64,000 bases of DNA from Spirogloea muscicola (taxonomy: Eukaryota; Streptophyta; Zygnematophyceae; Spirogloeales; Spirogloeaceae). The stretch is from NCBI GenBank assembly GCA_009602725.1, contig WELB01000127.1, positions 266,316-330,315 on the forward strand. Reading direction: 5' to 3'. Numbering within the stretch: position 1 is the stretch's first letter; each line of letters begins with the position of its first letter. Under the pieces are notes generated by a model that saw nothing but the letters and a program-made list of their open reading frames with translations, was not told the DNA's origin and searched no databases. Made by a program: the position numbers and the translations under genes. Shown here in pieces: positions 15,130 to 49,413 of this stretch.

Positions 15130-17443
15130 GGTGGACTGTGAAGTGGACCCCTTGGTAGTTGCTCCCTGGCTCCCAAGAGCTGTGCTCCAAGCCATAACCG
15201 TCCACTAACTGAGGACTTCCCTACTGCCTCGTCGCCCTCTCCTTGTAAGGATATGCTTGACTACGTGTACCATTTCCTTGTCCCTTTCCTTGGCTTCCTG
15301 CAAGCATGATCTGTCTTGAGTCCTGGGTCCTATATTTATCAGTACTGTTGCTGCTGAAGCAAGATGTGCATTGAGGCAACCTGGTCAACTGCCGCACGGT
15401 GCCTACTTTATGCTGTAGGGAGACTAGCTTCCGTTTGCTGCTAGAAGCCATCCTGCTCGACCCCTCTGAGCTGGGAACCGCCAAGTCTGGACTAGAGCTT
15501 GAGGAATCTTCAGGAGTCTCATCTTGTGTGACGCCTGACTCAGAGCTCATTGATTCTTCTGCTTGGCACCCTTGCTGCGTGAGGACGAGGTAATGTGCCA
15601 CCGATGTGTACCCCTCACCAACAACCTGCCAGCAGTGAAGCCAATTTGTCAACAAGAGAATCATGGACTGACAAGCTGCATCTTCTTGCAAGGTAGTAGC
15701 CTTGTAGTGATTCGCACGCCTCGGCTTCTCCTACTTACTAGCTCAGCTAGTCAAGGCGTCAGTAATGGTCGTGGCTAAGGAGTCACTCACCTTCCTGTAC
15801 AATTGGCCCGTGGGGGCCCAGCCCTTGTGCGACCTACAGAAGCTGCAGTTGCAGATGTCTTGGCAGTCTGGGCACACCCAGTCCTTGTTTGCTTGTGCCT
15901 TAAGCACATCTTCGCCATATCTGCCAACACGTGGAGGATCAGCATCTGTGAGGCGTTAGCTGACCAGCCAAAGGAGTGCAGGTTGTTTATAGCACAAGTG
16001 TGCATGAGCCCTGTGATGTTCAGGTAGTGCATGATTGTGCACAACTCTGACACTGGGAGGAAGGGCAAGAGCTGCTAAGAAACCTTACCTCATGAAGAGG
16101 CCATTACCACAGATTTGTCCACGGAGGGACTTGCACTTCGAACGGGTGTTCTGCTGGCCCAATGCCTTCTGCCTGTGCTTGCACAACCCATCAGAATGCA
16201 GCAATCATTATACCGGTCCCCATGTCTTGCAGAAAACAGTGCTTATCTATAGTGTAGCCGGCAGTGCAATCTGGCACTCAGCCACCGGTTCAAAAGCTTT
16301 GCTTAAAGCTGATAGCAGTTAAGCTATCCTCAGCTGACTTGCATTGATGACAAGTTCTCCCCTTCAGATTGTTACACACCCGTGTCTTCCCTGCGTCATA
16401 GAAGGGGACAGCACAATCAGCTGGCTACTGACCTACAACGTGCTGTAAGGGTAGGGAATGCGGAGCAAGGTTGATGAGCAGATGGGTCATCCTAAGGGGT
16501 ACTACACAACCCGCAGGGTAAAGTAGCCACTTGTGCTGCCTGCTTTCCCAAGACATCAAGAAGGCCGTCGTAAGCAGCGGCCGTTAGTGAAGGTGTCGCA
16601 TGAGCGGACAAGTCCCACAGAGCGACACTGTACTGTATGCTGTCCAGGCAAGACCTGCTGGAGATGAGCTATGCCAGACAGCTGCCGCACCATCTGGAGC
16701 GAAGCCGTCCTTGTTGAAATGCCATGCACGGGCTGCGCTGCCCAGCAACCGCTGGTGCTCGCGCGTGTACAACTTCGGCTTGCATCCGCCAGGTCGCAGC
16801 TTCTGCCGCGGCCTCTCGCCGCTGCTGGCGAGCTGTGGCCGAGCTTGCTGGGGCGATGCCGCACTGGCACTCGGCTCAGGGAAAACCTTCTGAGCTCCCG
16901 CCAATCTGGCCAGAGGCGGCAGGCAATCCCAAAGTGTCAGCCCCGCTCGGCTGGAGAGCTCGTCTTCTGGCTCTGCATGGCGGCTGTGACAGAGCAGACC
17001 AAGTGCATGGAGGAAGCGACGGAGCAAGCTGGGGACGTGACGTGATCTCCTCCCCTCGGCTCATCTGACCTTCGAATTGCTGACACGGGGTACAAAGAGC
17101 GCCCTGTCTGCCTCGCCTGTGGCTCCGCCAGCACAGTCATGAATACCCTCTGTGAATTGGAGGAGCTGTTCTTCTGCATGCATCTGGCTGGCGTATACAG
17201 CCGCTCTGCGAGTACCAGCAGCTTTCCTCGGGTCGTGATGTGAGCGGGGAGGCGCGGACCTGCTGGAGGAGCGCCTGGCGGCAGCGCGGGGCAGCGGCGC
17301 TCGCCCCGAGGCGCCGGCGGCAGGCAGCGCTTGTGACGGCAGGAGGAGGAGGAGGAGGAGGCGGGGGAGCGGCGGCGAGGAGGCCGAGCTGCAGCGGCCA
17401 GGCGCGCCTGCCGCTGGAGCTCGTACGCCGTCAGAGGCGCCAT
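15130..17443 (-). pseudogene. CDCA7-like zf-4CXXC_R1/chromodomain gene, copy A (decayed)
   Basis: Starts MAPLTAYELQRQARLAA (17443) and keeps the family exon layout, including the exon with SKPKLYTREHQRLLGSAA-type sequence (about 17027-16600), RVCNNLKGRTCHQC (about 16370), a knuckle exon (about 16180-16090), YGEDVLKAQANKDWVCPDC (about 15930-15790) and the chromodomain exon (from about 15640). Damage relative to copies B and F: in the knuckle exon one Cys reads Arg and a later Cys reads Gly, the splice-junction base after CHQC is changed, a deletion upstream of the chromodomain shifts the frame, and a stop interrupts it after REVLS. It lies convergent with the CCX half-copy. A degenerate telomere-like track follows its 5' end. 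Confidence 0.75.
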
Positions 17444-20903: not shown

Positions 20904-23277
20904 TCAAAATGACTTATTTGCACCTAGCAAGTTGCTCTCTGGCTCCCAAGAGCTGTGCTCCAAGCCATAACCGTCCCACTCAATGAGGACTTCCCTACCG
21001 CCTCGTCGCCCTCTTCTTGCAAGAATACGCTTGACAAGATGAAGATGGTACATCTTCTTGTCCCTTTTCCTGGCTCCCTGCAAGCATGATCTTGGTTGAG
21101 TCCTAGGCGTCTTCCTATGTAGATCAGTGCTGTTGCTGCTGAGGCAAGATGTGCATTGAGGCAACCTGGTCAGTTGCCGCACAATGCCTACGTCATGCTG
21201 TAGAGAGACTAGCTTCCGTTTGCTGCTAGAAGCTCTTGTAGCCCTCCCGCTGGATCCCTCTGAGCTGGACAACACATAATCTGGACTAGGGCTTGATGAG
21301 AACTCAGGAGCCTCATTCTGTGTGGCGCCTGACTCAGAGCTTGATGGTTCTTCTGCTCGGCACACTTGCTGCGTCAGGACGAGGTAATGTGCCACCGATG
21401 TGTAACCCTCAGCAACGACCTGCCAACCGTACAGCCGATCAGCCAATGAGAGAATCATGACTTGACATACCGCATCTTCTAGCCGCATCTTCTTTCAGGA
21501 TAGTAGGGCTACAGTGAGTTGCACGCCTCGCCTTCTCCAACTTTCTAGCTCAGCTAGTCAAGGCGTCGGTCAGGGTCGTGGCTGAAGACCTACTCACCTT
21601 CCTGTAGAGTTGGGCTGTGGGGGCCCAGCTCTTGTGCGACTCACAGAAGCTGCAGTTGCACATGTCTCGGCAGACCAGGCACATCCAATCCTTGTTCGCT
21701 TGTGCCTCAAGCACGTTCTCTCCGTATCTGCCAGCACGTGAAAGTATCAGCATACATGAGGAGTCAGCTGAAGGACGCCAGCCAAAGGAGCGCAGGCTGT
21801 CCATAGCAAGAGTGTGCGCGAGCTCCGTGGTGTTCAGGCAGTGCATGAATGTGCACGACCGAGATACTGGGTGGAGAGCAAGAGCTGCTGAGAAACCTCG
21901 CCTCATGAAGAGGCAATCACCGCAGGATCGGCCACGGACGGACTTGCATTCAGAACAGGTGGTCCGCTGGCCCAGCGTCTTTTGCCTGTGCTTGCACAAC
22001 CCATCAGAATGCAAGAACACTTTTGCTGGTCCCCCTGTCTTCAGACTTTGCAGAAGCCAGTGCTAGCAATGATTGTAGGCCGGCATTCCGTTCTGGCAGT
22101 CAGCCACCAACTTGTCAGCCTGCTAAGAGCTGCTCGCGGTTCTGCTATCCTCAGCTGACCTGCATTGATGACAAGTCCTCCCCTTAAGACTGTCATACAC
22201 CCGCGTCTTTCCTGCGTTGTAGAAGGTAACAGCACAATCAGCTGGCAACTGACCTACAACATGCAGCAAGGTTGGGGAATGCGAGCAAGGTTGATGAGCA
22301 GGTGTGTCATCATAAGCGGCACACAAGCTGCAGTACAGAGTAGCCATTATTTGCTGCCTGCTTCTCAAGGCGTTGAGAAAGCCGTTGTAAACTACGGCCG
22401 TCGGCGAAGAACGTGTCGCGCGAGCGGACGAGTCCCATAGAGCGACACTGGACTGGATACTGTCCAGGCTGGGGCTGGACCTAGAGAGCTGCGCACCATC
22501 GGGAGCGAAGCCGTCCTTGTTGAGTTGCCACGAAGGGGCTGCGCTGCCCAGCAGCCGCTGGTGCTCGCGCGTGTACGACTCCGGCAGGTTGCATTCCCCA
22601 GGTTGCAGCTTCTGCCGCCGCCTCTCAGTGCTGCCGGCCAGCCGTGGCTGCGCTTGCCGCTGCGATGCCGCACCGGCACTCGGCTCACGGTAGTCCTCCT
22701 GAGCCTCCGCCAACCTGGCCAGAGCCCGCGGGCATTCCCGAAGTGTCATCACTCTGTGGGCAGCTCCAGCTGAGCCCCGCTCGGCTGGAGACATCGTTCG
22801 CCGGCTCTGCATGGCGGCTGTGACAGAGCAGACCAAGTGCATGGAGAAAGCGATGGAGCAAGCTGGGGACGTGACGTGATATCCTCCCCTCGGCTCATCT
22901 GACCTTCAAATTGCCGACACGGGGTACGAAGAGCGCCCTGCCTGCCTCGCCTGTGGCTCCGCCAATGCAGTCGTGAATGCCCTCTGTGAACTGGAGGAGC
23001 TGTTCTTCTGCATGCACCTGGCTGGCGTACACAGCCGCTCTGCGAGTACCAGCAGCTTTCCTCGGGTCGTGATGTGAGCGGGGAGGCGCGGACCTGCTGG
23101 AGGAGCGCCTGGCGGCAGCGCGGGGCAGCGGCGCTCGCCCCGAGGCGCCGGCGGCAGGCAGCGCTTGTGACGGCAGGAGGAGGAGGAGGAGGAGGCGGGG
23201 AAGCGGATTCGAGGAGGCCGAGCTGCAGCGGCCAGGCGCGCCTGCCGCTGGAGCTCGTACGCCGTCAGCGGCGCCAT
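20904..23277 (-). CDS. CDCA7-like zf-4CXXC_R1 protein with C-terminal chromodomain, copy B
   Basis: Probable chromatin protein of the plant CDCA7 class, which partners SNF2-type remodellers in DNA methylation maintenance. Minus-strand order: exon 1 from M23277 (MAPLTAYELQRQARLAA, the YE..R..RL..N leader typical of plant members); a long exon (about 22842-22142) ending RVYDSLKGRTCHQCR; exon 21985-21902 (KTLGQRTTCSECKSVRGRSC, GDCLFM); exon 21727-21598 (YGENVLEAQANKDWMC, CRDMCNCSFC, APTAQLYRK); exon 21419-20904. The last exon continues the family's usual tail (VAEGYTSVAHYLVL), then a Ser-rich linker, then a chromodomain (LVKRILARRGRRGGREVLIE, WDGYGLEHSSWEPESNL). All Cys pairs of the zinc domain are present. 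The first aromatic-cage position reads His, where copy F has Tyr. The donor after CLFM reads GC rather than GT. It converges with CCX copy B. The 5' exon boundary and the middle splicing are uncertain. Confidence 0.75.
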
Positions 23278-31689: not shown

Positions 31690-34063
31690 GACTATCAAGT
31701 GAACTCCTTGGCGTCTAGCAAAATGCTCGCAGGCTCCCAAGAGCTGTGCTCCAAGCCATAAGCGTCACACTCAATGAGGACTTCCCTACTGCCTCGTCGC
31801 CCTCTCCTTGCAAGGATGCGCTTGACGACATATACCATACTCATGTCCCTTTTCCTGGCTTCCTGCAAGCATGATCTGTGTGGAGCCCTAGGCTTTTTCC
31901 ATATGTAGACTAGTATTGTTGCTGCCGAGGCAAGATGTGCAATTAGGCAACCTAGTCAGTTGCCGTATGGTGCCTACGTCATGCTGTAGAGTGACTACCT
32001 TCCGTTTGCTGCTAGAAGCTCAGGTCGCCATCCCGCTCGACCCCTCTGAGCTGGACACCGCCAAGTCTGGACTTGAGGAAGCTTCAGGAGTCTCATCTTA
32101 TGTGACGCCTGACTCAGAGCTTGATGGTTAATCTGCTCGGCACGCTTGCTGCGTGAGAACAAGGTAATGTGCCACCGATGTGTACCCCTCACCAACGACC
32201 TGCCAACCTTACAGCCGATTTGCCAACGAGAGAATCATAAATTGACATGCCGCATATTCTTGTTAGAATGATAGGGCTGTCATTAGTTGCACGCATATTC
32301 TTGTAGAATGATAGGGCTGTCATTAGTTGCACGCCTCGGCTTCTCCAACTCAGTAGCTCAGCTAGTCAAGGCGTCAAGCATGGAGTAAGTCGTGGCTTGA
32401 GAACCACGCACCTTCCTGTAGAGTTGCCCTGTGGGGGCCCAGCCCTTGTGCGACCTGCAGAAGCTGCAATTGCAGATGTCTCGGCAGACTGGGCACACCC
32501 ACTCCTTGTCGCTTGTGCCTCGAGCACATTCTCTCCGTATCTGCCATAACGTGAAAGGATCAGCATGTATGAGGATTTAGCCCATCAGCCAAAGGAGTGC
32601 AGGTGTGTACGAGTGTGCATATAGCACTATAGCACGAGTGTGCATGAGCCCCGTGATGTTCAGATAGTGCATGGTTGTGCACAACTCAGACACTGGGTGA
32701 ACAGCAAGAGCTGCTGAGAAACCTCACCTCATGAAGAGGCAGTCACCACAAATTGCCCACGGAGGGACTTGCACTTGGAACACTTTTGCCTGTGCTTGCA
32801 CACCCATCAGGATGCAGCAATGACTCGTACTGGTCCCCTTGTCGTCAAGCGATGCAGAAGCCAATGCTTGGCAATAAGTGTAGGCCGGTATTTGGACTTG
32901 GCACTCAACCACCAACTTATTAGCCTTGCTTGAAGCTGCCAGCAGCTCAGCTTTCCTAAGCTGACCTTCATTTGATTTGAGTTGTCCCCTTAAGATTGTC
33001 ATACACTCGCGTCTTTCCTGCATTGTAGGTGGTAACAGCACAATCAGCTGGCTGCCGACCTACAACATGCAGCAAGGGTTGGGAATGCGAGATAAGGTTG
33101 ATGAACAGATGGGTCATCGTGAGGGTTACACAAGCTGCAGAAGCCATTATCGCTGCCCTGCTTCTCAAAACGCTGAGAAGGCCGTCGTAAGCCACGGCCG
33201 TCAGCCAACATGTCGCGTGAGCAAAGCAGTCCCACGGAGCAAAGCTGGACTGTATGCTGTCCAGGCTGGACCTGTTGGCGAGATGAGCTGTGCCAGATAG
33301 CTGGGCACCATCGGGAGCGAAGCCGTCCTTGTTGAGTTGCCACGAACGGGCTGCGCTGCCCAGCAGCTGCTGGTGCTCGCGCGTTTACAACTCCAGCTTG
33401 CATTCGCCAGGCTGTAGCTTCTGCCACCGCCTCTCGCCGCTGCTGGCCAGCAATGGCCGCGCTTGCTGCGGCAATGCCGCAGTGGCACTCGGCTCATGGT
33501 AGTCCTTCTGAACTCCCGCCAACCTGGCCAGAGGCGGCAGGCAATTTGGAGTGTCAGCACTCTGTGGCCAGCTCGAGCTGAGCCGCGCTTGGCTGGAGAG
33601 CTCGTTCGCCGGCTCTGCGACGGCGACTGTGACAGAGCAAATCAAGTGCCTGAGGGACACGATGGAGCAGAGTGGGGACGTGACGTGATATCCTCCCCTC
33701 AGCTCATCTGACTGCCCATTGTTGATACGGGGCTACTGAGAGCGCCCTGTCTGCCTAGCCCGTGGCTCCGCTAACATGGTCATGTACACCTTCTGTGTGC
33801 ACCTGGCTTTCTCTTTCAGCCGCTCTCTCAATTTTGACAGCCGCGTCCCACTATCCTTTCATGTGAGCCCGGGAAGCGGACCTGCTGGAGGAGCGCCTGG
33901 CGGCAGCGTGGAGCAGCGGCGCTCGGCGCGGGGCGGCGGCGGCAGGCGGCGGCGGCGATGGCGGCGAGGGTGGCGGCGGTAAGGAGGCCGAGCTCAGCAG
34001 TTGCGCGCGGTTGGCGGCAAGGCGCGCCTGCCGCTGAAGCTCGTACGCCGTCAGCGGCGCCAT
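31690..34063 (-). pseudogene. CDCA7-like zf-4CXXC_R1/chromodomain gene, copy D (decayed)
   Basis: Starts MAPLTAYELQRQARLAANRA (34063). It retains LYTREHQRLLGSAA-type and RVYDNLKGTT-type exons, but the knuckle exon (about 32800-32730) carries a deletion removing the TLGQRTT stretch and then shifts frame. The YGENVLEAQA exon (about 32560) is frameshifted. The last exon has three stops in the Ser-rich linker. The chromodomain sequence is still readable near 31830-31740, but the cage Trp of WDGYG reads Cys (ECDAYG). Clearly non-functional. Confidence 0.75.
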
Positions 34064-35799: not shown

Positions 35800-37681
35800 G
35801 TTCAGGAGGACTGTGAAGGAGAGCGCAGGCCCTCCGACTGTGAAGGCGAGCGCAAGCCCATCAACTGTGTGCCGGACGACGGAGCCCGGCGGCTCCGGCG
35901 GCCGCCCTCGCGAGAGCTGCGACGGCCGCAACCTTGCGTGCGAGCGACCTCCGGGAGAGGCGGCGCCGCCGCCGCCGCTTCCGCCGCNCCGCTGGCCGGC
36001 CTGGGCCTCCTGCTGCTCAAGGCGCGCCACTCCTCTGCAGCCGCCGCTGCCAAGCCGCCTGCTCCCGCTCCCGCCGCCGCCGCCGCGCCTCCGCCGAGCT
36101 CTCCGCTGCCGGCCCTGGTCGCCAGCGCCGCGGGCGTCGCCGCCGACTCCACGCGCGCGCCGCCGGTGCCGCGGTACATGGCGGCCACGTTCGCGAGCAC
36201 GGCCATGGCAGCACGCTCGCCCGCGGAGGCCACGCCCAGAGACTGGCCGCTTGCGCTCCGCCAGGCTCCCGCCCGGGCAAGCCACGGCTCTCTTTCCCAG
36301 CTGTCATGTGCCTGTGCCTTGCAGCCGGCTCTGCGCGCTGCTTGTGGGCCTTGCCGCCTCTGACGCTGGCAACCTCGCAGGGGCTTGCCCACTGACGCGC
36401 CGCCACGCTCGCCGTGTCGCCGCCGACGACATCGGGTGACCAGTTGTGCCTGACGGCCCGCGCCACTCCATTGTACAGGTGTCCAAAATCTTGGCAATCA
36501 GGGTGACCGCAATTCCCCGCCCGACCCGGCCCGAGGCCGACAAGAGCGTCGGTGCTCAACATCCTGGGGCCAAGATGGTGCAACGGCGCCCGATTGTCTC
36601 ACATTCGCTTGCGAGGAAGCACCTTCTGCCGCACGCCGCCAGCTGTCAGGCGGCAGCCCAAGTACTGCCCATTCCACATCAGCTTCTGCTGCCAATCTCG
36701 ACCAATCTCGTCTGGTCTAGACAGCTCTGAAAGTCTATTTTGGTGGTCTGGTCCCTCAAGGCGTAGGTTACGGGTGTCTGGAAGGCTCTTGATGCAAGGC
36801 ACAGGATGCATAGAGATTGACAGGCTGTGTGCTCTCTGACCTGCAGATACCTGCACAGGAGAAAGGCGACGCAAAGAACGGGGCAAAGAACCCCGTCCAA
36901 GTGCTCCACCAAGGGGAGTGCAATGTAGCTGGTCAAGGCCGTACCATGACCAGAATGCAGCTGCTACCGCTGCCGATGCCGCAGAAGGCCGAGGTCAGCC
37001 TGATCCAGCAAGATGCCAGGATGCTTGATGCTTTGACCTTTCATGTCTTTTCTCGTGAACCAATGATGATGTCTTTCACAGTCCTGCCCGAGAGGCTCAG
37101 GACCCTCATCTTCCCTGGCACACCTTGTTGATTCTAACCAAGTGTGCTGGTCTCCTTGCCACAGCCGTGCAAAAGCCCCGCGCCAAGACCGTCTGGCCTA
37201 CGGTGCCCAGGTCTCCTGGCCAGCGCTGCACGCGCCCGACGGAGAAGGCTCATGCACGAGCAGGTTAACAAGCGTAGCGCTGGCGGAGCCTGCTGAACCG
37301 TTGTTAGGCAGTGTTCTCCCGTCTCCCTCACATAAAGCGACCTTGTCAGACGAGGTTTGCCGCGGCTGCAGTGCTAGTAGGTGCCGACCACGTCCTTGCA
37401 TGCTGAGTCGTCTGTCCTGCATTGGCCGCTTGCAGTCACTGCTGCATGAACCTGATCAATGCCTGCTGTTGCATAGGCGTTCACAGCATCCCCTGACTGC
37501 CGCAAAGCACCCTGACTGCGCAGGTTGCCCAGCTCCGCTTTTTGTCCGAGCTGGCAGCGAGGCAAGCCCGGGTGGAGATGCTGAAGGCAGAAGCTCAGCA
37601 AATTGCCGAGCTGAGGCGAACACTGGTGCACAAGCCCCTGCCGATGCCGTCATTCCGGCGGGTCTACAAACCCCTCCCGTG
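35800..37681 (+). CDS. Putative TPX2-motif protein, unit E (partly resolved)
   Basis: The terminal exon is the supportable part. After the acceptor CTGACTGCGCAG (ending 37523) it reads VAQLRFLSELAARQARVEML, then AEAQQIAELRRTLVHKPLPM and PSFRRVYKPLP with stop at 37679-37681. The pattern LR..LV.K..PMP.F.R.FKP is the C-terminal signature of TPX2-type microtubule-associated proteins. A candidate N-terminal exon (RYMAATFASTAMAARSPAEA, about 36170) has a relative at 39.63 kb. The middle exons are not resolved; an N at 35988 lies within. The copies at 40.6 kb (minus) and 41.5-41.7 kb (plus) are decayed relatives. Could also be a gene fragment captured by the repeat unit. Confidence 0.45.
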
Positions 37682-37689
37682 AGGCACTC

Positions 37690-39120
37690 GACTCAGCTCC
37701 ACAGCGTGCATCCATGCTGGACGCTGCACCCAAGCTTTCTCGTGCTTCTCTGCCATGGCAAAAAGTGAAAGAACAATGGCGGTCCTGCGTGTGCTGGTGC
37801 GGAATTACTGCTGAATTGCAAGAATTGTCTTCATGCTGGGTCGAGCTGACAAGGTTTCGCTGCACACCTGAGCAGGTCCAAACGGAAGCGGACAATCGCA
37901 CGACTTCCAGCATTCAAACAGCTGGCCAGCCGCAAGCACCACATATGTGCGAGGTCAGTGCTCTGTGCCTCGGATCAAACACGCCTAGCAGCACAAAGTA
38001 GCACCTTGTGGTCTTGCTTTTACTGCTGCACCAAGCTGCGGACTGTTCTTAGCATGCCTGAGCTGTCCTGGTTATTGTGCTGCTTGTTGAGGCCAGTAAA
38101 GACGTCCCATATGTAGTGCATAACCTGCAGCCATACCCCGCAAACCTTCCACCCCATGCACCTAACGGGAAAGCTGTGCTTGGTTATCGCAGTCGTGGCT
38201 TTCAGTGATAGCTGGTTTTGAGAGGCTGGACCCCACTTGGCTCAGACGACTATTGCTGGAACTCGGCTCCATCCACCTTCACGACATTCTACACTGATTC
38301 GCTAGGCAGTCTTGCACTGGTTGCTCATCCGAATCTAGCTCGCGTACCAAGCACGTTGATAGTCAATATCAATTTCATAAATAGCCTGTACAACAGAATG
38401 TAGTATGTCTTCTTCAGCCAGGCGCCGGCCTTCGGTGAGGAAAAGGAGGAGATTCACCATACCAGGCTTGGCCAACCCGAGTATCCTATTTCAGTGCAGA
38501 ATCCAAGGAGATGGCAGAAGTAGCTGAGGTGGCAGGTCAAATACCTCAGATTGCCTTAGTCCACTAGACGCTTAGAGCGCTGCTTTATCTCACCAAGAGT
38601 TGTGTTCTAATATGGGCACAGCATATGGGTACAACGCCACACCGTGTGACATTCCACTCGGTTCAAGTGCAGTGCCTTGCTCTCTCAAGTAGTCGTATTT
38701 CTGGCTGCTTACACTCCCACTCGCTTTGCTCTTGCTTGCACTCGCTTGAGTCTGGTCTGTTCTTGTCTGGCTTCTGCTTCTCCTCTCACCAACATATCCA
38801 TCACTCTAGAAATTCAACTATTGGCACGGATCCTTCTTCTGGCGAAGCTAATACTCGTAAATCGCAGAACACAGAGAGCACAGAGTTTGACGAGTCCTGA
38901 AAACTGAGCGGTCCCACTGTCAATTTGTGTACAGCGCAGCCGCTGACCTTGGCAGGTCGGCAATGGCCATAGATGAGTCCGGAGGAACACGAACCAGCTG
39001 ACAGAGGCCTGTCTTGCTGCGCAAAGGGACTCACGAAGTAGTGCCGGCTGGCCTGGAAGGCTTTTGGCAGAATGCCAGGATGTGAGCGGCCTGAACACCG
39101 GCATGCAGACAACAGGATAG
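37690..39120. other. 3' flank and gene-poor stretch
   Basis: 37.69-38.13 kb is the 3' flank shared with 41.7-42.15 kb. From 38.13 to 39.12 kb no domain, RNA gene or repeat partner was recognised. Confidence 0.45.
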
Positions 39121-39920: not shown

Positions 39921-40443
39921 CAATCAAAAGCCTCAACTGCGACCGGCCAAGCACAGGGTAAGGCTTGGGTGCATGAGGTACGAGGTGGCAGCGCATGGCC
40001 TGCAGATTGCGCACTACCTATAAGACGTCTTCTACCGGCCTGGTCAAGCGGCACAATAACCAGGACGGCCAGCGCATGCCAAGAAACGAAAGTGCTTGTG
40101 CAGCAGTAAAAGCAAGACGACAAGGTGCTACTCTGTGCCGCTCTCAGGGTGTTTTGGCTCCGAGGCACGGAGCACTGACCTGGCACGTATGTGGTGCAGG
40201 CGGCTGGCTAGCAGCTGGAGCGCTGGAAGGTGAGGAATCGTCAGCTTCTTTGCGGACCTGCTAAGGTGTGCAGCAAGACCTGGTCAATGTAACCCGATGA
40301 TGACACAAGCCATGCAAGTCCACAGTTCATTCGCACCAGCTCACGCAGGACCGGCGTTGTTCTTCAGGCAGTGCTGCAGCGGAGGCGCACAGGAAGGCTT
40401 GGCTGCAGTGGCCAGCATGCATGCACGCTGTGCGCCCAGTGCT

Positions 40444-40612
40444 TCATGGGAGGCGTTTGAATAGCCGCCGGAATGACGGCACCAGCAGCGGCTTGTGGAC
40501 TAGCGTCCTCCGCAGCTCAGCAATTTCCCGGGCTTCCTCCTTCCGCTTTTCCACCTCCCCGCCTCCGCTTGCCTCGCTGCCAGCTGAGACAAGCGGCGGA
40601 GCTGGGCAACGT
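40444..40612 (-). pseudogene. TPX2-motif exon, inverted decayed copy
   Basis: The minus strand reads VEKRKEEAREIAELRRTLVH, then KPLLVPSFRRLFKRLP and stop. The splice acceptor seen in other copies (GCGCAG) reads GCGCAC here, and an indel shifts the upstream half. Confidence 0.55.
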
Positions 40613-41521
40613 GCGCAGTCAGGGTGCTTGGCAGCAGTCAGCTTATGCTGCGGACGCCTACGCAGCAGCAGGCAACATTCAGGTACATGCTGCACCATCA
40701 GTGACTGCAAGCAACAATGCAGGACAGACGACTGAACATGCAATTACCTGGTCGGACCTTCTGACAGGCCCACTAGCACTCTAGTTGTGACAGATCTCGT
40801 CTGACACGGTGGCTCAATGTGAGGGGGGACGGGAGTATACTGCCTGACGACAATTGAGCAGGCTGCGCCAATGCTGCGCTTGTTTACCTGGTCGTGCATA
40901 TGCCTTCTCCATTAGGCGCGTGCAGCGATGTCCAGGAGAGCAGGGCGTGGCCTCGCAGGAGCTCCTGACGCGGGCCTTTTACGCGGCTATGGCATGGACA
41001 CCGGCACACTCGGGTACTTTCAGCTTCTAAGTGTGCCAGGGAGCCGCAGAAACCGAGGAGGGGCTCGGGCCCTCGTCTTTTCCTGCGCCTCCCTGGTACA
41101 CATAGAGCTGAAGTACCCGAGTGTGCCGGTGCCTTCGCCACAGCCGCCTGAAAGGAAAGGCCAGCGCCAAGAGCTCCTGCCATGCCGTGCCCTGCTCTCC
41201 TAGACAGCGCTGCACGCGCCTGATGTGGAAGACTTGTACACGACGAGGTTGACAAGTGCAGCGCTGAACCAGCCTGCTAAATCGTAGATAGGCGGTATTC
41301 TCCCTGTCACCCCTCGCACAAGCGACTATTGTTCACGAGCTATGCCACGGCTGGAGTGCTAGTAGGCCTGTAGGATGATGCCGACCAGGTCCTTGCATGC
41401 TGAGTCGCTGTCCTGCATTAGCTGCTAGCAGTCACTGCTGTTGCTGCATGTACCTGGTCATTGCCTGCTGCTGCTGGGGTCCGCAGCATCCACTGATTGC
41501 TGCAGAGCATCCTGACTGCGC

Positions 41522-41695
41522 AGCTTGCCAAGCACTGGCGCTGGTCTCAGCAGGCAGCAAGGCAAGCGGAGCAAGGCAAGCGGAAGTGGAAAAGCGGAAG
41601 GAGGAAGCCCGGCAAATTGCTGATCTGCGGAGGACGCTAGTCCACAAGCTGCTGACAATGCCGTCATTCCGGCGGGTTTTTAGACCCCTCCCGTG
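41522..41695 (+). pseudogene. TPX2-motif terminal exon, unit G
   Basis: After CTGACTGCGCAG the exon reads a frame interrupted by a 10-bp-type duplication (GCAAGCGGAGCAAGGCAAGC), then VEKRKEEARQIADLRRTLVH and MPSFRRVFRPLP with stop. The C-terminal signature is kept; the junction to the upstream frame is shifted. Confidence 0.5.
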
Positions 41696-42419
41696 AGCCA
41701 CTCGACTCAGATCCACAGCGTGCATCCATGCTGGCCACTGCACCCAAGCTTTCTCGTGCTTCTCTGCTATGGCAAATCTTGAAACAACAATGCCGGCCTG
41801 CGTGTTGCTGGTGTGAAACCACTGCTGACGCGCACGGGTTATGACTTGACGAGGTCTACGTGCACACCTGAGCAGGTCCACAAAGAAGCTGACCACCCCC
41901 CTTCTTCCAGTGTTCCAACTGCTGGCCAGCCGCCTGCACCACATAATTGCCAGGTCAGTGCTCCGTACCTCAGAGCAGACACGCCGAGTAGCACAAAGTA
42001 GCACCTTGTGGTCTTGCTTACACTGCTGCACCAACCTGATCTTTACTTCTCTCGACGTGCCTTCTCTCAACGTGCCTAAGTTGTCCTGGTCATGTGCCGC
42101 TTGACGAGGCCGGAAAGACGTCCCATATGTAGTGCGCCGCAGGCCACAACACACTGCAAACCTCTGACCTCATGCACCTGAGGTTACTGCTGTGCTTGCC
42201 TGCTTACAGACGAGGCATATTGGTTGCCCACAGAACCCTGCTGCCGAGAGGCTGGTGCCCGATTGCATTCAGCGGCGCGGCTGATGACAAGGCTTGGAAA
42301 GCTTAGGGCTCAGTCACAGAGGTGCTGGACGCACTCGAGCACATTGAGACCAGGGGATTATTGACGAGCGCTATGGAGCCCGCCGTCGAGGCGCTGACCC
42401 ATTTGTAGAGTAGGCCTCG

Positions 42420-43425: not shown

Positions 43426-44815
43426 TTGTAGAACATGTCCCTGAGGACCTGCTCGCCAGTGCTGATCAGGCTCAACGCACGCGTCGTCGGCACGCCCAGG
43501 TAGTGCATTGCCTCGCTGCATGCGTACTCCCGCAGTGAGCTGCGGAGCACCGCCTTGCCATCAGCATGCCGGCTGTACGGTGTCCTCCCAGCGCCCTTGA
43601 GCTGCACATGGCTTATCGCCAAGCAGGGCAAGTACTGTAAGTAGCAGGAGACGCACTAGGGGCAATGCCAGAGAGTGAGGTAAGCACGCAAAGTTCTCAA
43701 GGAGGGGAATATCAGCCATCTCACCTGGAGCTCCCACGAGTTGCCAGTGGTATTGACGACCTCGCCGAGCGTGATAGCTCGGCCATCGCCCAGCTGGCCC
43801 GCCCACTGCCCAAATTGGTGACCGCCGTAGCACTGAGCGTACGGCTTGCTGGTAAGTGCCAAAATGAGAAGCCACCAAGCAGATTGCAGTCAAGGAAAGG
43901 CTCACCAATTTCAGCTCCTCCCAGATACAAAGCCACCTCAGGGGGCAAAGCTCGCTCTAAGTTGAGGGGGTATACGTTCGCTGGTTGCCAGATACGCCCG
44001 TTTTATTGTACTCTTTGCAAGCTCTGACAGATATGCACGATGCACTTATACTCTTGCAGATGCGTATGTTGAGAAGTCAGGTGGGGGGGTTGCCAAGCAC
44101 TGCAGACTCATCGGCTGCTTCACACACCTCCTCACCTGCCGGCAAGGGTGATAGCTCCGCAGAAGACCTGCACAAACTCGGGCTGCTCGAACCTGCCAAC
44201 CCCGACAGCCCAGCAACAGCGAGGTACTATGAATAGCGGCCGGTCAGTAGGTGCTCGAGCTGGGGCAGGCTAGAGCTAAGCCCTGAAAACATAGCTAATA
44301 AGCGTCCCACTGTGGAAGCTGGATGCTCTTCGCCGTGGTTGCCAGGAAGAAAGCTGCAGCTAGGTGATCCTCCCAGACACATGATACCCCGGATCGACTC
44401 CTCGCAAATACTTGCCTAGCTCTCTCAAGAAGCGCTGTGATGCGACAGCAGGCCAGCGGCAACTGTGGAACCACTACGAAGCCGATGATAGCTCCTACGT
44501 ATACTTCTAGGAAGACCATGGCAGAAAACCCAAGACCTAAATGAAATCAGTAAGATGTTGGGGCCTCGGGAGGTGAGGGTGCCACTTACTCGGCGGGGTC
44601 GAGGCCGATGAGCTCCGCAACGTCGGCGGACGCGGCGACGAGCACCGGATCAGTGGCCGCCGTGGACGGCCTGACGAGCGAGTAGCAGGCGTTGCGGACC
44701 TGGCGCACGGGGCCGCCGACCTGCGAGTCGCCCGGCAGCTCGTCCACGAAGGTGTGCCGCCAAGGCAGGCCCTCGAGCGCCCGCCGCGCTGGAGGCGCCG
44801 CCGCCGCCGCCGCCG
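43426..44815 (-). pseudogene. SELENOO: SELENOO/YdiU-type pseudokinase gene fragment (first four exons)
   Basis: The family transfers AMP to protein side chains, usually in mitochondria or plastids. Minus-strand exons: LPWRHTFVDELPGD to ELIGLDPAE (about 44810-44590); an exon ending ALPPEVALYLGGAEI (about 43965-43905); [19 protein letters not shown] to TTGNSWELQ (about 43853-43726); [20 protein letters not shown] to [12 protein letters not shown] (43601-43426). Splice sites look intact and the sequence is well conserved, but only about the first third of a normal protein is present. The catalytic lobe is absent, and nothing to the left matches it. The fragment lies antisense between the 5' block of unit F (43.0-43.26 kb) and its CCX frame (44.82 kb on), exactly where other units have a (CCG)n junction. 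This suggests capture by the repeat unit, or a host gene broken by it. The initiator Met is not seen. Confidence 0.75.
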
Positions 44816-44928
44816 GGGCCTCTGCTTTTGCGAGGTCGCTCCCGAGCAGGGACAGCGCCTGCACCAGCGCCGCGCCCTCTACCGCCCGCCGCCGCGCCGG
44901 CCGCCTCGCCGCTGCAACCGCGCCAGCC

Positions 44929-45696
44929 ATGGCGTCCGGCCTTCTGGGCCTGGCCACCGCCTTCGTGGCGGCGTGGGCGACCGAAGCCTGCGCAGCCGCC
45001 ACCAGGCTGGGCCTGCTCCCCAAGACCCCGAGCACCCCGGCGGCCACCGAGATGGCCATGGCAGCGTCGGACGCCTCCGACAGCAAGAAGCCCGCCGTGC
45101 TTCGCGCCGACGCGTGCGCCGACGTCGGCCCACTGGCAACCCCGACCGTCCGCGGAGGCCGCCGCCGCCAGCTGGCGAGCCCCCGGAGGACCACCCCTGC
45201 AAGCAGCACGCATGGCATCACCGTGGAGGCGGCATGGCAAGCCGCCTGCTGCCTCACGGATGCGCTCAACGACGCGCTGCTGCTGCGCCGCGAGGTGGAG
45301 GAAGCGGCACAGCTGGCGCAGGACTGGCAGCGCTACGCCGAGGAGACGGCGGGGGAGCGCGACGAGCTACTCGACGACAACCAGCAGCTCCGACACGCCG
45401 CGCGCAGCAGCGCGGAGGAGGCTGACGGCCTATACCAGCAGGCGCTCCACCTTCAAGGCCTCCGCCGCCACCTGGCGGGGCAGCTGCAGGAGTGCCGCCA
45501 GCAGGCGCACGCCCATGCGTCCACGCTCAGGTCCGACCTTGCGGGCGCGCAGTGGCTGCTGCGCTCCGCTGGCAGTAGGATGGGCGACCTGCAAGCCCAA
45601 GTGGCTTCACAGCATCACCGGCTCCAGGCGATGCACCTGGAGGTGGCTGCCCTCAGGGCCACCCCTGGCAACATGCCACAGCCCGGTCGCACTTAG
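44929..45696 (+). CDS. CCX coiled-coil protein, copy F
   Basis: Begins MASGLLGLATAFVAAWATEA, preceded in frame by the leader SLPSRDSACTSAAPSTARRR. The coiled-coil half is intact (LAQDWQRYAEETAGERDELL, MGDLQAQVASQHHRLQAMHL). A small indel just before the end replaces the usual RRRASCA tail by a short different one (TPGNMPQPGRT), although RRRASCA can still be read in another frame at 45717-45734. The N-terminal variable region differs more from copies B and C, so this is the older branch. Convergent with CDCA7 copy F. Confidence 0.6.
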   Translation: MASGLLGLATAFVAAWATEACAAATRLGLLPKTPSTPAATEMAMAASDASDSKKPAVLRADACADVGPLATPTVRGGRRRQLASPRRTTPASSTHGITVEAAWQAACCLTDALNDALLLRREVEEAAQLAQDWQRYAEETAGERDELLDDNQQLRHAARSSAEEADGLYQQALHLQGLRRHLAGQLQECRQQAHAHASTLRSDLAGAQWLLRSAGSRMGDLQAQVASQHHRLQAMHLEVAALRATPGNMPQPGRT

Positions 45697-46454
45697 TGAC
45701 TGCTCTCCTCTCAGGAGGAGGGCGTCCTGCGCTTAGGTGTCGTAGGTGTAGCAACACTCAGCTTCGTCCTTGTCAGCAGTCGTGCTTCTAGTGCATGTAG
45801 GCAAGGTTTACCCGCTATATTGGGATGGTCTCCTGCAGCCAACGCCCCCGTCACAGGTTAATAGCATGATGGCCTTGTGTGTTGCTGCGCTTGCAGCGAG
45901 CTCCTTTCGTGCTACTGCATGCTCGAGCCTGTCAGCAGAGAGGCTTTCTTGTGATGCTAGACTACCATAGGGAGAGAGCACATGTCCTTGCTGTACATTT
46001 GACACCGCATAGAGATCTCAACTTGTTGACATTGCACTGTGCTGGTACCTCACAGAGCAGGCAGCAACATGAATTAAAGGGTCTTTGTCATTGTTGGGCC
46101 AATTCACGTGCATTTGGTTGTATGCCAGACCCATGAATAAGTAGAAGCTCGGCCACGCATATTGCATGGTCTTGCTCTCAGGTGCCAATATTACCTGCGG
46201 TGGAATGCTTTCTGGTTAATGACTACATCTGTAGAAGTGGTACTGCCTGGTCCTAGATGGTTCCCATGGGCAGCCCAGAGATCCTTAGGCCCTTGCATAC
46301 TACTTGTGTGGTTCTGCCAATTCCTCCTCAGGGGTGCATACTTCCTTCACTCCTGCGCATAGTCATGGGGACAGAGAACAAGTACTGCTTGGCTTGCTAT
46401 GGCATGAACACGAAGTCGATAGCAACTGCATGTGTGATGATGTTACATGATGGG

Positions 46455-47188: not shown

Positions 47189-49413
47189 TCAAGCGAACTT
47201 CTTGGCGTCTACCAAGTTGCTCTCTGGCTCCCAAGAGCTGTGCTCCAAGCCATAACCGTCCCACTGAATGAGGACTTCCCTAGTGCCTCGTCGCCCTCTC
47301 CTTGCAAGGATATGCTTGACGACGTATACCATTTTCTTGTCCCTTTTCTTGGCTTCCTGCAAGCATGACCGGTCTTGAGCCCTGGGCTTTTTCCTATATA
47401 TATTAGTACTGTTGCTGCTGAAGCAAGATGTGCATTGAGGCAACGTAGTCACTTGCCGCATGCTGCCTACTAAATGCTGTAAAGAGACTAGCTTCCGTTT
47501 GCTGCAAGAAGCTCTTGTAGCCATCCCGCTCGACCCCTCTGAGCTGGACACCGCCAAGTCTGGACTAGAGCTTGACGACTTTTCAGGAGTCTCATCTTGT
47601 GTGACGCCTGACTCAGAGCTTATTGTTTCTTCTGCTCGGTACTCTTGCTGCGTCAAGACGAGGTAATGTGCCACCGATGTGTACCCCTCAGCAACAACCT
47701 GCCAATTGTGCAGCCAATTTGCCAAGAAAAGAATCATGGACTGCCGAGCCGCATACTCATGTGGACTAGCAGGGCTGTGGTGTGTTGCTCGCCTCCAACT
47801 TAGGAGCTCAGCTAGTCAAGGCGTCGATCATGGTCGTGGCTAAGGACTCACTCACCTTCCTGTAGAGTTGGCCCGTGGGGGCCCAGCCCTTGTGCGACCT
47901 GCAGAAGCTGCAATTGCAGATGTCCCTGCATACTGGGCACACCCAATCCTTGTTCGCTTGTGCCTCAAGCACATTCTCTCCATATCTGCCAGTATGTGAA
48001 AGTATCAATGAATGTGAGGAGTCAGCTAACCAGCCAAAGGAGCGCAGGGCTGTTTATAGCAAGAGTGAGCATGAGTGATGTTCAGGTAGTGCATGGTAGT
48101 GCACAGCTCAGACACTGGGTGAACAGCAAGAGCTGCTGGGTAACCTCACCTCATGAAGAGGCAGTCACCACAAAATTGCCCACGGAGGGACTTGCACTTA
48201 GAACAGGTAGTCCGCTGGCCCAGCGTCTTTTGCCTGTGCTTGCACAACCCATCAAAGTAGAGCAGTGACTTATACTGGTCCCCCTGTCTTCAGAAGATGC
48301 AGAAGCCAGTACTTAACAATAAGTGTAGGCCGGCGTTGCATTCTGGATTCAGCCACCAGGCTAATAGGCTTGCTTGAAGCTGATAGCAGTTCAGCTAAGA
48401 TCAGCTGACCTGCATTGATGACAAGTTCTCCCATTTAGATTGTCATACACCCGCGTCTTTCCTGCGTTGTAGGTGGTAACAGCACAATCAGCTGGCTGCT
48501 GACCTACAACATGCAGCAAGGGTGGGAATGCGAGCAAGTTTGACGAGCAGATAGGTCATACTCAGGGGTACACAAGCTGCAGTATAGAGCAGAGTCTTGC
48601 TGCCTGCTTCCCAAGACGTTGAGAAGGCCATTGTAAGCCACGTCCGTCGGACGAGTCCCACGGAGCTACACTAAGACTGTTTGCTGCCCAGGCTGGACCT
48701 GTTGGCGAGACGAGCTATGCCAGAGAGCTGCGCACCATCGGGAGCGAAGCCGTCCTTGTTGAGTTGCCACGGATGGGCTGCGCTGCCCAGCAGCCGCTGG
48801 TGCTCGCGCGTGTACAACTCCGGCCTGCATTCGCCAGGCTGCAGCTTCTGCCGCCGCCCCTCTCCGCTGCTGGCCAGCCGTGGCCGCGCTTGCCGCGTCG
48901 ATGCCGCATTGGCGCTAAGCTCACTGTAGTCCTTCTGAAGTCCCGCCAATCTGGAAAGAGGCGGCAGGCATTCCCGAAGTGTCAGCACTCTGTGGGCAGC
49001 TCGACCCTCAGCTCATCTGACTGCCTTCTGCCGATACGGGTTACTAAGAACACCCCGTCTGCCTAGCCTGTGGCTCCGCTAACATGTTCATGAAACACCC
49101 TCGGTATGTACCTGGCTGGCTTGCACAGCCGCTTTTTCAATATCAGCAGCCGTATTGTGGATTTCTGATGTGAGCGGAGAGGCGCGGACCTGCTGGAGGA
49201 TCGCCTGGCGGCAGTGCGGGGCAGCGGCGCTCGGCGCTCGGCGGCGGCGGCAGGCGGCGGCGGCGACGGCGACGTCAGAGAAGAAGCGGCTGCGGCAGCA
49301 GGAGGAGGGGAAGGTGGGGAAGCGGCGGCGAGGAGGCCGAGCTCCGACAGGCGCGTGCGATTGGCAGCCAGGCGCGACTGCCGCTGAAGCTCGTACGCCG
49401 TCAGCGGCGCCAT
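47189..49413 (-). CDS. CDCA7-like zf-4CXXC_R1 protein with C-terminal chromodomain, copy F (best preserved)
   Basis: Starts MAPLTAYELQRQSRLAANRT then RLSELGLLAAA, matching the YE..R..R...N..RL..LGL leader of plant CDCA7-class proteins. Further exons: LYTREHQRLLGSAAHPWQLN (about 48830-48760), TTYNAGKTRVYDNLNGRTCH-QCR (about 48480-48410), QKTLGQRTTCSKCKSLRGQF-CGDCLFMR (about 48230-48150), YGENVLEAQANKDWVCPVC-RDICNCSFC...APTGQLYRK (about 47990-47860), and the last exon from 47699 (VAEGYTSVAHYLVL, Ser-rich linker, chromodomain). The chromodomain (about 47330-47195) has the full Tyr/Trp/Tyr cage: MVYVVKHIL and IQWDGYGLEHSSWEP. Donors after CHQCR and RLANR are of the AG/GTC type. The zinc domain binds DNA in the family and the chromodomain binds methylated histone tails; using both in one protein is an inference. 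An E2F-type TTCCCGCC lies just upstream (49474-49481). Confidence 0.8.

Follow-up and report, generated by a model that had tools for sequence, protein, structure and literature searches.

Does a single gene of Spirogloea muscicola join a CDCA7-type zinc finger to a chromodomain, and what might such a protein do? The question is raised by a locus on the minus strand at positions 49413-47189 of a 64,000-nucleotide stretch of contig C127 (WELB01000127.1, forward-strand positions 266,316 to 330,315), which is referred to here as the window. It bears on a wider problem in chromatin biology. The available text of PMC12718391 calls the guidance of DDM1 to its nucleosome targets unclear, and names nucleosomes rich in H1, H2A.W and H3K9me2 as strongly dependent on CDCA7. 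In the available part of PMC10538959, Arabidopsis class I CDCA7 is described with no domain besides the zinc finger. The conclusion that one algal gene encodes both domains is well supported at the sequence level, by an exon shared between them, by three intact copies and by selective constraint.

The locus is a single gene of six exons that join in phase into 1257 nucleotides, encoding 418 amino acids with no internal stops, and all five introns are bounded by GT..AG. The initial annotation of this DNA gave the position and strand of the gene correctly, and the leader, the GYTSVAHYLVL tail and the Ser-rich linker that it named are all present in the joined protein. The last intron it proposed does exist, but its bounds are 47855-47699 and not 47860-47699, while the chlorophyte setting it assumed has to be abandoned, the host being a streptophyte alga of the Zygnematophyceae. 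The parts of the gene are as follows.

49190..49413, minus strand: exon 1, with the start codon and the N-terminal motif of the DDM1/HELLS-binding type, then a Pro/Ala-rich stretch
49395-49333, minus strand: the N-terminal motif (HLBH), amino acids 7-27, with E8, R11 and N18
48736..48950, minus strand: exon 2, ahead of the zinc finger and conserved across plant CDCA7s (YTREHQRLLG..W..DG)
48410..48503, minus strand: exon 3, the beginning of zf-4CXXC_R1 (TCHQC); an acceptor 42 nucleotides downstream is the likelier start
48150..48233, minus strand: exon 4, with Q179, cysteines 3-6 and G196; its two junctions split the codons of R178 and R206
47856..47985, minus strand: exon 5, YGEN..W.CP.CRDICNCSFC, with cysteines 7-11
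47189..47698, minus strand: exon 6, with the C-terminal tail of the zinc finger (GYTSVAHYLVL), the Ser-rich linker, the chromodomain and the stop codon
47660..48447, minus strand: the zf-4CXXC_R1 domain, amino acids 166-262, spread over exons 3-6 and placed by Pfam scan and by its residues
47204..47326, minus strand: the chromodomain core, amino acids 374-414, with the cage Y374, W395 and Y398 and the clasp positions V373 and V412

Exon 6 is a single open frame of 510 nucleotides, free of introns and equal in length in the three intact copies. Since it holds both the tail of the zinc finger and the chromodomain, no splicing event is needed to pass from one to the other, and this rules out two adjacent genes. 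A retrogene or transposon chimera as an account of the whole gene is ruled out by the five introns together with the three intact copies of the same structure. At exon 3, two forms can be drawn: published model P0003 splices 42 nucleotides later, giving a protein of 404 amino acids in the same frame, and the aligned CDCA7s of other plants agree better with this later acceptor. The 14-amino-acid stretch QQPADCAVTTYNAG (48503-48462), which is present in the models of two copies and bypassed by the later acceptor in P0003, is possibly a misannotation or the product of alternative splicing.

Judged by residue-level tests, the protein is a CDCA7 and its zinc finger is canonical class I. In the Pfam scan of the 418-amino-acid form, PF10497 (zf-4CXXC_R1) covers residues 166-262 with 136.3 bits against a cut-off of 22.7 (E 4.2e-40) and reaches from 1 to 99 of the 99 profile positions, so the domain is as complete as first proposed. 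Against the PDB, the finger matches CDCA7 chains only (3 sequences; best E 6.7e-27). According to the available text of PMC10538959, a class I zf-4CXXC_R1 is defined by eleven cysteines and three ICF residues; in Arabidopsis, cysteine four is displaced by two positions. All 11 signature cysteines are present (C174, C177, C188, C191, C199, C202, C222, C225, C229, C231 and C234), and their spacing is that of Arabidopsis class I, including the fourth shifted by two residues. In alignment A2, which holds 29 CDCA7-type proteins, 27 of them from outside the Spirogloea muscicola genome, ten of these cysteine columns are invariant and C234 is not, being His in some green algae. The ICF residues R178, G196 and R206, which correspond by our own count on aligned CDCA7 chains to human R274, G294 and R304, are invariant in 29 of 29 rows.

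Residues outside this signature point in the same direction. Q179 and S232 are the equivalents of Q275 and S330, the residues by which the human protein, in the complex described in the available text of PMC11343034, contacts hemimethylated CpG DNA; both Q179 and S232 are invariant in A2. The same holds for E8, R11 and N18 of the N-terminal motif, named HLBH in that paper; their aligned counterparts in the Arabidopsis protein P0148 are E32, R35 and N42. In the accessible part of PMC12711577, Arg35 and Asn42 of Arabidopsis CDCA7 are predicted contacts within the DDM1-binding part, and their mutation left DDM1 binding intact.

The absence of any other detectable domain, as described for the Arabidopsis class I proteins, does not extend to the algal protein. 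PF00385 (Chromo) matches residues 374-414 in the Pfam scan, with 37.3 bits against a cut-off of 25.1 (E 2.6e-9; profile positions 1-42 of 53), and both profiles that had been suggested as a check on the spliced protein score above their cut-offs. The aromatic cage Y374, W395 and Y398 was placed by alignment to CBX8, at what we take to be the cage positions of that chromodomain, and it is kept in all three intact copies. The stop codon falls seven residues past WEPESNL, which makes a full-length C-terminal helix impossible; the AlphaFold 2 (AF2) model, of medium confidence, has no such helix, although a short helical turn would still be possible. The claim of a full chromodomain with a Tyr/Trp/Tyr cage is borne out for the cage and not for the domain, whose C-terminal helix is cut short.

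By sequence, the best PDB matches of the chromodomain are CBX8, CBX6 and CBX2 (E ~2e-9). The medium-confidence AF2 model superposes on CBX8 (5eq0) at 0.9 Å over 39 columns, and its structure matches to solved chromodomains are ~30-38% identical. At the clasp positions, CBX8 and CBX6 have V and L where this protein has V373 and V412, the latter being Leu in the other two intact copies. A hydrophobic clasp is presumably the rule for Polycomb-type readers, and these Polycomb-like residues are a hint of H3K27me3 binding. The distinction between hydrophobic and polar contacts is stated in PMC12035754.

The gene has been duplicated, and its copies allow selection on the chromodomain to be assessed. 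Searched with exon 6 at the DNA level, the assembly shows eight places: C127 has four, all within the window, C89 has three and C43 has one. One copy per contig is intact, with no internal stops and with exon lengths of 224 (230 on C43), 215, 94, 84, 130 and 510 nucleotides. Among the five that are not intact, the copy near 21 kb of the window is partly decayed, and each of the other four is interrupted by stops or frameshifts across several exons. In the flanking stretches compared, the DNA up- and downstream of the three intact copies still aligns. A whole-genome triplication in Spirogloea muscicola is credited to Cheng et al. 2019 in the available text of PMC9065682; the three intact copies fit such an event, as do three contigs with DNMT1-RFD exons.

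Exon 6 is free of indels among the three intact copies, compared with 17, 12 and 19 indel runs per pair in the five introns together. In the chromodomain core, 5, 7 and 8 of 123 nucleotides differ (4-6.5%), and in the introns of the same pairs 137/935, 123/948 and 175/927 (13-19%), which gives one-sided Fisher p values of 0.0003, 0.01 and 0.0002. In a star-tree neutral simulation, the amino-acid differences of the core, summed over pairs, had means of 38, 45 and 52 at three rates, against 10 observed, and none of 20000 runs per rate was as low. By these comparisons of sequence, the chromodomain core is under constraint. The last four residues of the protein vary among the intact copies.

Within the window, the four gene copies form a tandem array of ~34 kb, with one intact, one partly decayed and two clearly decayed. 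The three that are not intact are listed below.

31701..34063 (ends approximate), minus strand: decayed tandem copy with stops and frameshifts, and Cys at the position of the cage Trp
20904..23277, minus strand: partly decayed tandem copy with a net frameshift in exon 1 and GC for GT after exon 4; exon 6 is open, with His at a cage Tyr position
15158..17443 (ends approximate), minus strand: decayed tandem copy with a frameshift inside the chromodomain

Other sequences are repeated in the same region. A plus-strand frame at 44675-45736, of coiled-coil-like composition and without a Pfam match, is repeated along with the CDCA7 units, and similar DNA lies near 18.6-19.9, 24.5-27 and 29-31.5 kb of the window. 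Additionally, a block of ~1.1 kb occurs in three places with ~75% identity, one of them inverted (37112-38202, 39927-41042 and 41114-42198).

The fusion is hidden in the current annotation, since none of the four published models of the family (P0001-P0004) carries PF00385. The closest protein records bear names such as SM000127S26667, with the locus s127:311745:315728, whose end at 315728 is the exact start codon of the gene on C127 (window position 49413 plus 266315). The models depart from the gene in different ways. P0002 leaves exon 6 early and continues into sequence antisense to the neighbouring frame, P0003 and P0004 each fuse two tandem copies into one protein, and P0001 keeps the frame across the linker and breaks off immediately ahead of the chromodomain, lacking a stop codon.

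The fused gene appears to be the sole class I CDCA7 of the assembly, since profile and sequence searches return only this family and one divergent locus. The PF10497 search gave 19 candidates, all scored, with 11 matches, of which 10 are exons of this gene family; the eleventh is a divergent zf-4CXXC_R1-like locus at C376:21902-22144, beside a masked stretch and not class I in the stretch read. A search with the class I finger of Mesotaenium gave 14 candidates, all scored, and 12 of 12 matches lie in this family. Neither search turned up a class I CDCA7 of this assembly that lacks the fusion. The same genome encodes DNMT1-RFD, SRA and PRC2-type CXC domains. Exons for DNMT1-RFD lie on each of C168, C234 and C256, as expected for MET1 after triplication. 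PF00145 gives 71 matches in the assembly, mostly weak, among which chromomethylases are not separable.

Relatives with the same architecture were sought outside this genome. PF00385 is absent from the precomputed domains of 179 distinct homologues, mostly from land plants (the best 120 of 376 plus the best 120 of 778), a survey that rarer fusions, or ones masked by faulty gene models, could escape. Querying with the linker and chromodomain (residues 275-418) brought 219 candidates and only two matches, both of them models of the same genome. A Pfam scan of 29 of the 179 homologues, 27 of them from other genomes, found PF00385 in none and a Tudor domain in one. This last protein, the CDCA7-like P0117, has a C-terminal PTM_DIR17 Tudor (1.1e-13), another kind of chromatin-reader fold in the place where the algal protein has its chromodomain.

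With moderate confidence, the product can be seen as an algal CDCA7/DDM1 adaptor with an added reader of methyl-lysine or nucleosomes. Its conserved residues suggest that, as in its Arabidopsis and animal counterparts, the zinc finger would sense hemimethylated CpG on nucleosomes and the N-terminal helix would bring in the DDM1/HELLS remodeller. In the Spirogloea lineage, a chromodomain would have been joined to the normally variable C-terminus of CDCA7. Its most likely job would be to keep the CDCA7-DDM1 complex on methylated heterochromatin through a methylated H3 ARKS site (K27me3 or K9me3), and the very basic face of the domain, in touch with DNA, would probably help. Expression, DDM1 binding, binding of hemimethylated DNA and the binding and specificity for methyl-lysine are all what we infer from sequence. 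Such a protein would couple a DNA-side and a histone-side signal, as the initial annotation supposed. A class I CDCA7 that naturally bears a chromodomain, and that seems to be the only CDCA7 this zygnematophyte has, offers a ready test of a histone mark as a guide for DDM1. More tentatively, it could be a bivalent reader that recognizes, on one nucleosome, hemimethylated CpG together with the methylated H3 tail in a Polycomb-like way (H3K27me3), and brings DDM1 there. If that were true, maintenance of CG methylation would be physically tied to a histone mark in a sister lineage of land plants.

Several observations weigh against the adaptor reading. The C-terminal helix of the chromodomain is truncated, the protein contains the basic runs KKRDKK and ARRGRRG, and an arginine-rich basic patch lets the chromodomain of CBX8 bind DNA (available text of PMC6411926). 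According to the accessible part of PMC12711577, silencing in Arabidopsis does not require the part of CDCA7 alpha that lies C-terminal to the zinc finger; such an end can take on a new module harmlessly and might equally put up with a degenerate one. The measures of selection are also less favourable in detail. The ratio of nonsynonymous to synonymous proportions (pN/pS) in the core, 0.17-0.43, rests on ten variable sites (binomial p 0.047), the zinc domain is far more constrained than the core, with a ratio of substitution rates (dN/dS) of 0.05-0.10, and the linker is nearly unconstrained (dN/dS 0.46-1.21), with no excess at third positions. It is possible, if rather doubtful, that the fusion was made and the chromodomain is a basic module contacting DNA, RNA or protein, or a degenerate remnant at a dispensable C-terminus, with no reading of methyl-lysine. 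However, the Y/W/Y cage is retained in three of three intact copies and the core is more conserved than the introns and than the neutral simulation allows; conserved cage and core speak for a chromodomain in use. The weak constraint on the linker and the published models without PF00385 also bear on an improbable alternative, in which the chromodomain part of exon 6 would be absent from the mature message through a hidden intron or an early transcript end. As many as 252 GT..AG pairs of at least 50 nucleotides, conserved in three copies, can be drawn before the chromodomain. On a crude donor score with a maximum of 6, the best conserved GT of exon 6 reaches 4 and the real donors of the gene 3, 4, 4, 5 and 6, so that donor strength is not decisive. 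On the other side, 93 of the 252 pairs leave the chromodomain in frame, exon 6 combines freedom from indels with low core divergence, and P0001 has the in-frame linker and stopless end described above.

A further proposal concerns the origin of the domain and is compatible with the adaptor reading: the chromodomain may derive from the integrase of a Ty3/gypsy element (chromovirus) and continue to target retrotransposon chromatin, so that CDCA7 would follow the elements it silences. We regard this as conceivable and on balance unlikely. A Chromo search of the assembly gave at least 150 matches among 509 first-look candidates, and the weaker chromodomain of the fusion itself is not among the matches listed. 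Fifty Chromo loci were read, at 49 distinct places; 5 belong to the CDCA7 family and 45 (44 distinct) are element-type chromodomains, as are all of 20 further loci, and many, though not all, element-type loci have a GPF integrase motif upstream in frame. The fusion is 38-44% identical to 17 element rows. However, the element loop is 3-4 residues longer, the fusion scores nearly equally against CBX8 (40.2 bits) and the elements (42.8), 41 residues are too short for a firm tree, and host chromodomains may be missing from the at least 150 matches listed. A GPY/F motif and integrase do not lie upstream in frame of the fusion, where the CDCA7 linker and zinc finger are found instead.

Compared with known systems, the algal protein resembles the class I CDCA7s (Arabidopsis CDCA7 alpha and beta, human CDCA7) in its N-terminal motif, the 11 cysteines with plant spacing, the ICF residues, the Q275 and S330 equivalents and the tail of the zinc domain. 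In contrast to the Arabidopsis class I proteins, described without a further detectable domain, it adds a chromodomain. This domain is like those of CBX8, CBX6 and CBX2 in its sequence matches, its aromatic cage and the Val and Val/Leu at two clasp positions, but its C-terminal helix is truncated and the identity in structure matches is limited. The Ty3/gypsy integrase chromodomains of the same genome have the GYG-x-EH-xx-WEP stretch in common with it, whereas they differ in the longer loop, the integrase context and a residue before the first cage position that is mostly Glu and not Val. P0117 has the same N-terminal motif and zinc finger and a C-terminal fold of chromatin-reader type, which is a Tudor and not a chromodomain.

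The closest parallels in architecture show that the fusion, of which the initial annotation knew no description, has precedents. The available text of PMC10538959 reports zf-4CXXC_R1 together with CHROMO in class II proteins, namely XP_004340890 of Acanthamoeba castellanii and CCG81269 (CDCA7F) of Taphrina deformans. For such a pairing with a class I finger or in green plants, no report was found in the literature searched, a scope that excludes the source tables of that paper and most subscription papers. Compared by description and leaving domain order aside, the amoebal and fungal proteins hold the same two domain types in one protein, but their fingers, as far as that text goes, are class II, with the ICF glycine replaced, whereas the algal finger is class I and belongs to the green lineage. 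The pairing of zf-4CXXC_R1 and CHROMO is already known with class II fingers, and its class I version in the green lineage is the new part.
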